A stretch of DNA of 44,709 nucleotides from Mongoliibacter sp. (GTDB lineage Bacteria; Bacteroidota; Bacteroidia; Cytophagales; Cyclobacteriaceae): NCBI RefSeq assembly GCF_007692705.1, contig NZ_REBN01000139.1, positions 1 to 44,709 of the forward strand, given 5' to 3'. Under the pieces are notes generated by a model. It was not told the DNA's origin and ran no database searches. It worked only from the letters and a program-made list of their open reading frames with translations. Shown in pieces: positions 31,211 to 44,709 of the stretch. The first letter of the stretch is position 1. Each line of letters begins with the position of its first letter. The position numbers were made by a program, and so were the translations under genes.

Positions 31211-31387
31211 ATGCCATATATTTTGAGTTTTCGAAGCTGTTTGGTGAAATTTTATTATATTACAATTGTACAGAAACTCGAGAAGCCAATACCTTGTCAT
31301 CAGATTTTGCATGATTTTGGGATTGGTTTTTTGCTAGAGAGATATTCAATTTACACATAGCGTAGTTGAAAAATCTAAAAAATTTAT
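31211..31387. other. AT-rich gap, no gene seen
   Basis: Nothing codes here. It separates the L20 terminator from the degenerate tRNA/GIY-YIG unit. Confidence 0.5.
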
Positions 31388-31478
31388 TTGAAAGAATATA
31401 AAACGTAAACACAGTACATTGTGTAAAACAGCTGGTATAAAAAAAAGCCCCAAAAGTGGGGCTTAAGTAGCGAGGAGC
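31388..31478. repeat. 91-bp direct repeat, left copy
   Basis: Matches 31777-31866 almost exactly (about 90 bp, offset 389 bp). On the minus strand it contains the 3' end of a tRNA-Met, its terminator hairpin and the first 11 codons of a GIY-YIG gene (MYCVYVLYSFK from an ATG at about 31419), after which similarity stops. Differences are one A in an A-run and one base near 31422. Confidence 0.9.
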
Positions 31479-31557
31479 TCCCGATAGCTATCGGGACGAA
31501 CTGCCGTCCGCCGCGGCGCCTGCCTACTGTCAGGCAGGGATATAAATCCTGCGCTAG
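31465..31557 (-). pseudogene. Degenerate tRNA-Met remnant with palindromic insertions
   Basis: Compared with the intact tRNA-Met at 31856-31929, the minus strand keeps AGCGCAGGATT, GGCAGTTCG and GCTCCTCGCTA. The 5' acceptor and D-arm are missing, the anticodon CAT is changed to TAT-like sequence, and palindromic segments interrupt the rest: CCTGCCTACTGTCAGGCAGG (31519-31538), CGCCGCGGCG (31509-31518), and TCCCGATAGCTATCGGGA (31479-31496), which replaces part of the T-loop. Its 5' edge coincides with the stop codon of the GIY-YIG gene. Confidence 0.8.
31479..31496. repeat. 18-bp perfect palindrome in tRNA remnant
   Basis: TCCCGATAGCTATCGGGA is fully self-complementary. It shares the TCCCGA...TCGGGA arms with the palindrome inside both tRNA-Asp-like units at 44431 and 44559, and loosely with TTCCGA...TCGGGA at 12941-12964. 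Confidence 0.9.
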
Positions 31558-31808
31558 ATGTATTTAGGAAGTATTTGGTCTTTTATCCAATCCCTTCCTT
31601 TCCCGGTCTTGGGTTCTTTTTCTCTTCTAAGAGCTTGGGATTTCGAATTAAAAAATTCAAAGTGTATACAATACCAAGGTCTGTATCAGATTGTATGCCC
31701 TTTAGTCGAGAATTCATTGTGGAATTTGAACCTTGTGATAAGATCAGAAGTCATTCCAGTGTATGATCTATGATACTTGAAAGAATATAAAACGTAAACA
31801 CAGTACAT
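31554..31808 (-). pseudogene. Small GIY-YIG endonuclease gene with one in-frame stop
   Basis: From ATG 31808 to TAG 31554-31556 there are 84 sense positions in one frame: MYCVYVLYSFKYHRSYTGMT, then SDLITRFKFHNEFSTKGHTI, a TGA (31686-31688, codon 41), YRPWYCIHFEFFNSKSQALR and REKEPKTGKGRDWIKDQILP. This is the full length of the small standalone GIY-YIG nucleases common in Bacteroidota: a VYVL...YTG core, the catalytic Arg helix (TRF) and the E-containing ALRREKE helix. The TGA replaces an expected Arg (CGA to TGA). The gene follows the tRNA-Met terminator and ends in a tRNA remnant. Confidence 0.85.
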
Positions 31809-31866
31809 TGTATAAAACAGCTGGTATAAAAAAAGCCCCAAAAGTGGGGCTTAAGTAGCGAGGAGC
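31777..31866. repeat. 90-bp direct repeat, right copy
   Basis: Partner of 31388-31478. It spans the 3' end of the intact tRNA-Met, its terminator and the first 11 codons of the GIY-YIG gene, so the repeat defines a tandem tRNA + GIY-YIG unit of 389 bp. Confidence 0.9.
31829..31853 (-). terminator. Terminator of tRNA-Met
   Basis: Reading the minus strand, AAGCCCC pairs with GGGGCTT around ACTTTT and is followed by a T-run, directly after the tRNA 3' end. The same hairpin is duplicated at about 31440-31464. Confidence 0.85.
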
Positions 31867-31929
31867 AGAATCGAACTGCCGACCTCAGGGTTATGAATCC
31901 TGCGCTCTAACCATCTGAGCTACCTCGCC
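31856..31929 (-). tRNA. tRNA-Met (anticodon CAT)
   Basis: A 74-nt cloverleaf on the minus strand: acceptor GGCGAGG with CCTCGCT, D-arm GCTC...GAGC, anticodon loop TTCATAA, T-arm GGCAG-TTCGATT-CTGCT, discriminator A. One A-C mismatch at the base of the anticodon loop. An elongator Met tRNA is most likely; Ile2 with modified CAT cannot be excluded by eye. No encoded CCA. Confidence 0.92.
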
Positions 31930-44386: not shown

Positions 44387-44399
44387 CTTTTTATATTTT

Positions 44400-44527
44400 G
44401 GAGTGGTAGTTCAGCTGGTTAGAATGCCTGTCCCGAGTACTCGGGAAGGTCTCTGGTTCGAGTCCACTTCGCTATGTATAAAATCATCAGAAGAGATGAT
44501 TGAAAATTTATTTATTATATCAATTAT
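44400..44527 (+). repeat. 128-bp tandem unit 1 with tRNA-Asp-like sequence
   Basis: The first 31 nt (GGAGTGGTAGTTCAGCTGGT and on to TGCCTG) are identical to the tRNA-Asp start at 44656. The anticodon loop and 3' anticodon stem are replaced by the palindrome TCCCGAGTACTCGGGA (44431-44446). The T-arm region (GGTTCGAGTCCACTTCGC) no longer pairs well, and a 7-bp hairpin AATCATC/GATGATT (44482-44501) follows. It is identical over 128 bp to unit 2. Probably not a functional tRNA. Confidence 0.85.
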
Positions 44528-44655
44528 GGAGTGGTAGTTCAGCTGGTTAGAATGCCTGTCCCGAGTACTCGGGAAGGTCTCTGGTTCGAGTCCACTTCGC
44601 TATGTATAAAATCATCAGAAGAGATGATTGAAAATTTATTTATTATATCAATTAT
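44528..44655 (+). repeat. 128-bp tandem unit 2 with tRNA-Asp-like sequence
   Basis: An exact copy of 44400-44527, with the palindrome at 44559-44574. Perfect identity suggests a recent duplication or gene conversion. Confidence 0.9.
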
Positions 44656-44709
44656 GGAGTGGTAGTTCAGCTGGTTAGAATGCCTGCCTGTCACGCAGGA
44701 GGTCGCGGG
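44656..44709 (+). tRNA. tRNA-Asp (anticodon GTC), cut by window end
   Basis: GGAGTGG acceptor, D-arm AGTTCAGCTGGTTAGAAT, anticodon arm CCTGC-CTGTCAC-GCAGG, then the start of the variable and T region (AGGTCGCGGG). The 3' part is beyond the window. It is the likely parent of the two altered units upstream. Confidence 0.9.

Follow-up and report, generated by a model that had tools for sequence, protein, structure and literature searches.

An intact tRNA-Met(cat) gene was identified by ARAGORN at positions 31855-31929 on the minus strand of the window, the whole 44,709-bp stretch of Mongoliibacter sp. DNA analyzed in this study (contig NZ_REBN01000139.1). It is followed at its 3' end by a terminator-like GC hairpin with a T run (31833-31852, minus strand) and by a decayed gene for a GIY-YIG nuclease, about 84 codons in length (MYCVYVLYSFKYHRSYTGMTSDL...GKGRDWIKDQILPKYI*; 31554-31808, minus strand), which was recognized from its translation and its PF01541 match (46.9 bits, E = 1.3e-11) and whose reading frame is broken by one internal TGA. 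This gene, overlooked in the initial annotation, lies between two tRNA-Met copies, and its stop codon falls within a few bases of the start of a displaced 3' part of the tRNA. The displaced part was placed at approximately 31467-31557 (minus strand) by alignment to the intact tRNA and carries the palindromes. The terminator is duplicated at 31445-31464, within a direct repeat (D2) that is 100% identical over 39 nt. A second copy at 31385-31478 (minus strand) comprises the tRNA end, the terminator and the first GIY-YIG codons (MYCVYVLYSFK*), as indicated by direct repeats D1 and D2 and by translation; it represents what remains of another unit or of the repeat arm. The repeat of about 90 bp, made up of tRNA end, terminator and downstream DNA, occurs at a spacing of 388-389 bp. 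The remnant is not merely a decayed tRNA, as it had been described, since the tRNA end, the terminator and about 60 bp of downstream DNA are duplicated around the broken nuclease gene.

Palindromes of the tRNA-Met locus

The three palindromes reported in the initial annotation were confirmed at 31479-31538 within the partial tRNA-Met copy, and they exceed chance expectation. The 18-bp TCCCGATAGCTATCGGGA (31479-31496, unstranded) does lie in the T-loop but takes the place of ATTCT, so it is not a pure insertion. It found zero matches in shuffled sequence, even with 3 mismatches allowed, and the source genome has 11 occurrences of its 14-bp core (CCGATAGCTATCGG). CGCCGCGGCG (31509-31518) is part of a leftover of an ancestral plug, TCCGCCGCGGCGGA, at 31507-31518 (unstranded) in the anticodon 3' stem/variable region, the same site that is plugged in other tRNA-Met units. 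The third palindrome, the 20-bp CCTGCCTACTGTCAGGCAGG (31519-31538, unstranded), has two further copies in the source genome, and 0.05 occurrences of its pattern were expected by chance. A search of the remnant for known RNA families, intron families included, found no match.

The locus was compared with two other genomes. The same-genus genome G001 retains the tRNA-Met, the terminator, the spacer and rplT (L027) without a nuclease or a tRNA copy and thus represents an empty site. In the related genome G002 (L022) the unit is present with an intact nuclease ORF (1617-1871), to which the decayed gene of the window is 79% identical, and with a displaced copy that keeps the complete 14-bp palindrome TCCGCCGCGGCGGA as its single hairpin. 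Occupied sites in G002 and the window and an empty site in G001, next to a conserved rplT, are the pattern expected of a homing gene. No phage match to the G002 GIY-YIG protein was found, and a phage origin of the units was set aside on that account.

Because the G002 unit has only TCCGCCGCGGCGGA and lacks the T-loop palindrome, the other two palindromes of the window are later additions, and the three are of at least two ages. The second and third were initially taken as independent insertions into tRNA sequence; the comparison instead identifies CCTGCCTACTGTCAGGCAGG as a clean 20-bp insertion into a TCCGCCGCGGCGGA-type hairpin. The two younger palindromes belong to families dispersed through the genome and are probably explained by independently mobile palindromes.

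Genome-wide pattern searches returned 38 occurrences of TCCCGA-N2-9-TCGGGA in the source genome and 2 of the reversed control. Among the 37 sites examined, drawn from this set and the CCGATAGCTATCGG set, seven lie in displaced tRNA copies (31479, 44431, 44559, three in L344 and one in L009), a further two belong to functional structured RNAs (RNase P RNA and a cobalamin riboswitch), and most of the remainder lie in ordinary DNA that is not derived from tRNA. The count, which had been proposed as a check on a tRNA bias, favors such a bias: these palindromes form a family that is scattered generally and is strongly overrepresented in displaced tRNA copies. The two tRNA-Asp-derived copies near the window end are plus-strand units of 128 bp with 99% identity. 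In unit 1 (44395-44522) the anticodon arm is replaced by TCCCGAGTACTCGGGA (44431-44446), and unit 2 (44523-44650) has its palindrome at 44559-44574. They stand upstream of an apparently intact tRNA-Asp(gtc), with no nuclease gene; only the start of this tRNA (44656-44709, plus strand) precedes the window end, and its isotype was inferred from the anticodon GTC. In L344 (C146:73200-74000) a tRNA-Ala(ggc) has palindrome-bearing partial copies on both sides, and the L009 palindrome accompanies a second tRNA with the anticodon CAT, and the unit of this tRNA includes a GIY-YIG gene of its own. TCCCGATAGCTATCGGGA or a near copy also forms the tip of a variable RNase P RNA helix in three related genomes, including G001 and G002 (L005, L179, L180). 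One Y1 transposase gene of the source genome (L176, on C45) is flanked by REP-like arrays of GTCCGACGGTTGCGCCGTCGGAC. The window palindromes differ in sequence from these arrays, are not among the palindromes listed for the four Y1 loci of the genome, and are probably not the REPs of the resident Y1 transposases.

GIY-YIG and tRNA units across Bacteroidota

A protein profile built from seven such nucleases matched 161 of 392 Bacteroidota genomes, and the neighborhoods of the best-scoring matches (126 loci) were analyzed. The recurring unit consists of a small GIY-YIG gene (~84 aa) and a partial tRNA copy, and it adjoins an intact, identically oriented tRNA gene of matching type. An intact tRNA was present in 114 of the 126 loci, and 107 of 108 GIY-YIG genes were co-oriented with the nearest one at a median distance of 47 nt. 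Two mirror architectures accounted for 73 and 34 loci, respectively, and a hairpin precedes the nuclease gene in about a third of loci. The units are often in tandem, with the hairpin of the displaced copy at a set site. Three unit nucleases scored 60.6, 68.9 and 41.2 bits against PF01541, above the curated cut-off of 22.6. In the nuclease alignment (A1), Y5, Y16, G18, R26 and E63 are invariant, in agreement with the conserved Tyr, Y-x-G, Arg and Glu; we take these residues to fill the GIY-YIG catalytic roles.

Partial tRNA copies were recovered in about 90 loci at an alignment score of at least 36, the highest shuffled score being 26. Loci were ordered by profile score and copies resembling intact tRNAs were masked, and a palindrome was counted if it was GC-rich and perfect with arms of at least 6 and a loop of at most 7. 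Such palindromes occurred in 66 of 87 partial copies, a proportion that through masking and score ranking applies to partial copies only, compared with 145 of 3182 equally wide windows from the same loci (4.6%). The odds ratio is 66 with a p-value of 2e-64, which overstates the evidence since the units are related and not independent. Many of the remaining copies were seen on inspection to have imperfect or longer hairpins, and 10 of 87 intact tRNAs had a GC-rich palindrome. Simple sequence decay is ruled out as the source of the palindromes by this density control.

A DNA pattern for the tRNA-Met hairpin, applied without regard to the nuclease, gave at least 111 matches among 84,980 species, and 102 of the 111 matches listed were in Bacteroidota. 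Among the 45 tRNA-like matches listed away from stretch ends, 33 had a GIY-YIG gene on the same strand within 900 bp and 38 a tRNA-Met on the same strand within 1200 bp. Nuclease-free tRNA-Met units occurred as tandem arrays (L038, L042) and as solo copies (L264, L242, L211). About eight tandem tRNA-Met-like copies of 103 bp were observed in L046 (G019), all of them, including the full-length one, with TCCGCCTAGGCGGA.

Hairpin sites and nuclease lineages

In aligned units the place of the hairpin is fixed for each tRNA type. It extends from the anticodon 3' stem to the variable loop in tRNA-Met and lies in the D-loop after GGATA in tRNA-Arg, in the T-loop between TTC and GAA in tRNA-Ser(gga), and in the anticodon loop in tRNA-Ser(gct). 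In tRNA-Cys it is found between anticodon and T arm or in the D-loop, and in tRNA-Asn in the T-loop or the anticodon arm. Across 20 tRNA-Met units the arms were complementary in all, with compensatory changes in 3 of 20, and the loops were highly varied. Inner pairs, from a sample anchored on the outer bases only, comprised 57 Watson-Crick, 0 G-U and 0 mismatched pairs, as opposed to 28, 14 and 112, respectively, in a control stretch of intact tRNA-Met subjected to the same count. The plugs of tRNA-Arg keep the outer stem over whole inserts of 19 to 61 nt. In five loci (L148, L149, L111, L119, L126) the T-loop or anticodon inserts consist of two adjoining mini-hairpins, the loops of which are sometimes complementary (GAA/TTC, GGA/TCC).

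Mapped onto a 104-nuclease tree, the amino acid of the target tRNA required 21 changes (minimum 13), compared with a mean of 68 after shuffling (0 of 200 shuffles), and host family required 51. Nuclease lineages track the target tRNA far better than the host family, and target-specific lineages cross the host phylogeny as homing genes do. With 81 columns and most forks unresolved, the tree demonstrates this clustering rather than a detailed history. The three tRNA-Met hairpin sites (AC3', T and AC5') fall in three separate parts of the tree with 2 changes (0 of 1000 shuffles), for site labels that were set by hand from aligned sequences and for one of four tRNA types tested; automatic assignment split a single tRNA-Met site into three classes and gave no tree signal for Met. 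The shuffle test found no significant association between hairpin site and nuclease tree in the case of Cys, Ser or Leu.

Possible mechanism and relation to known systems

Co-orientation, the palindrome excess in displaced copies, the fixed site, the nuclease tree, the empty site, the intact G002 ORF, the tandem arrays, the nuclease-free units and the nuclease-blind pattern search together point towards a homing-type reading. We lean somewhat towards regarding the palindromes as parts of a selfish unit of homing type that is specific to its tRNA and leaves a hairpin-plugged displaced copy. The nuclease would cut its own tRNA gene at or near the hairpin site, and recombination with a donor would copy the unit into the cut gene. 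The incoming unit would supply enough tRNA sequence for one intact tRNA, the other part being displaced. The hairpin may then plug the displaced copy where recognition or cutting would occur, leaving only uninterrupted tRNA genes as targets; in this way the plug would probably protect the displaced copy from being cut again. If the intact copy were cut repeatedly and repaired out of register, tandem arrays would result, and units that had lost their nuclease would persist as arrays of plugged tRNA copies; in the source genome, tRNA-Asp and tRNA-Ala provide examples. In the window itself, the nuclease is dead, a second palindrome has broken the ancestral plug and a third has entered the T-loop.

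Several points speak against the homing-type reading. Chief among them, the intact tRNA beside the unit still has the presumed target, so that a donor would have to escape cutting by its own nuclease. In addition, the hairpin sites of Cys, Ser and Leu do not significantly follow the nuclease tree, and the nearest solved relatives are UPF0213 and SLX1 rather than classical homing enzymes. Any mutation would suffice if plugging were the only purpose, and the complementary arms suggest a further structural role. A fuller proposal, to which we give slightly less than an even chance, is that these are phylum-wide tRNA-targeting nuclease units in which the DNA hairpin at the split site is functional, as an immunity plug or a recombination site, its structure being conserved in preference to its sequence, and in which hairpins were acquired separately in different tRNA types.

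The initial annotation regarded the palindromes as mobile modules targeting tRNA stems or as repair products of nuclease cuts. An excess in tRNA-derived copies is upheld, but the targeting of tRNA stems in general is not, since most intact tRNAs lack palindromes, the site is fixed per type and most genomic copies are in ordinary DNA. Involvement of a nuclease fits because a GIY-YIG gene adjoins nearly all cases. Direct scars of cut repair are unproven: identical palindromes turn up at other places in the genome, and scars of hairpin opening, which would be inverted copies of the adjoining tRNA, were rejected because the flanks do not match. It is rather unlikely that the palindromes are short REP-like repeats with a mobility of their own, perhaps moved by Y1/RAYT transposases, that land in unconstrained DNA or RNA hairpin tips and find tolerant targets in displaced tRNA copies. 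The excess of TCCCGA-N-TCGGGA sites over the reversed control, the copies at the RNase P RNA helix tip and within the cobalamin riboswitch, the clean 20-bp insertion at 31519-31538, apparently repeated in L012/L014, and the resident Y1 transposases, one of which is flanked by REP arrays, are in its favor. However, it predicts neither a fixed site per tRNA type common to different host families nor palindromes in about three quarters of displaced copies over a 4.6% background, and the observed REP arrays differ in sequence.

That the hairpin-tRNA copy is a recombination site, comparable to integron attC or tRNA att, through which a recombinase moves cassettes with GIY-YIG only as the commonest cargo, is improbable. 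The co-oriented tandem cassettes, the cargo-less units and the conservation of structure with variable sequence would agree with it, as would L201 of a Chitinophaga MAG, where segments of ~1.6 kb with unrelated genes each end in an identical 70-nt hairpin plus tRNA-Met 3' sequence, an arrangement that looks like a cassette array. The hairpin place varies between tRNA types, though, and the match of nuclease lineage to target tRNA is not expected of neutral cargo. Just as doubtful is a role in RNA, in which the hairpins would block folding, processing or charging of the displaced tRNA part, or stabilize or bind the nuclease transcript. Arms that stay complementary under varying loops, with the compensatory changes, and the location of all unit parts on one strand are compatible with such a role, but the lack of any G-U among the inner pairs is closer to what DNA palindromes show, a half-tRNA would not require such a block, and about one third of loci have the hairpin on the upstream side of the gene.

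The unit family looks like an apparently undescribed group of tRNA-specific selfish genes of which the window is one case; no description of hairpin-plugged tRNA copies was found in open-access PMC papers. If correct, this would account for a frequent and apparently undescribed origin of three features of Bacteroidota genomes, namely broken copies of tRNAs, small genes for GIY-YIG nucleases and GC-rich palindromes. It would also provide many natural tRNA-specific nucleases with targets predictable from neighboring genes, and connect short palindromes with the target sites of nucleases in a way that can be tested.

By sequence, the closest solved structures to the unit nucleases are UPF0213 and SLX1, which share the compact domain. 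SLX1 is a structure-specific endonuclease subunit, and neither protein is known from tRNA-flanked repeat units. REP/RAYT systems likewise involve short dispersed palindromes and no target duplication, but the present hairpins have a fixed place in tRNA copies and a tie to GIY-YIG, and no REP tetranucleotide foot was identified. As with integrative elements at tRNA 3' ends, insertion would restore the tRNA, with a displaced part remaining; unlike them, the units of ~100-450 bp leave no room for an integrase gene next to that of the nuclease and have 5' and 3' displaced parts as well as hairpins. Group I introns in tRNA genes have a core of ~200 nt or more, whereas the unit inserts measure ~14-61 nt and sit in displaced copies. 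The nearest described case is SegB of phages T4/T6, a free-standing GIY-YIG homing endonuclease encoded next to tRNA genes; in phage T6 its activity leads to nuclease-dependent tandem amplification of segments with tRNA and nuclease genes (PMC13096335). In contrast to SegB, the Bacteroidota units are chromosomal and spread through the phylum, with lineages bound to one tRNA type and a hairpin-plugged partial tRNA copy.
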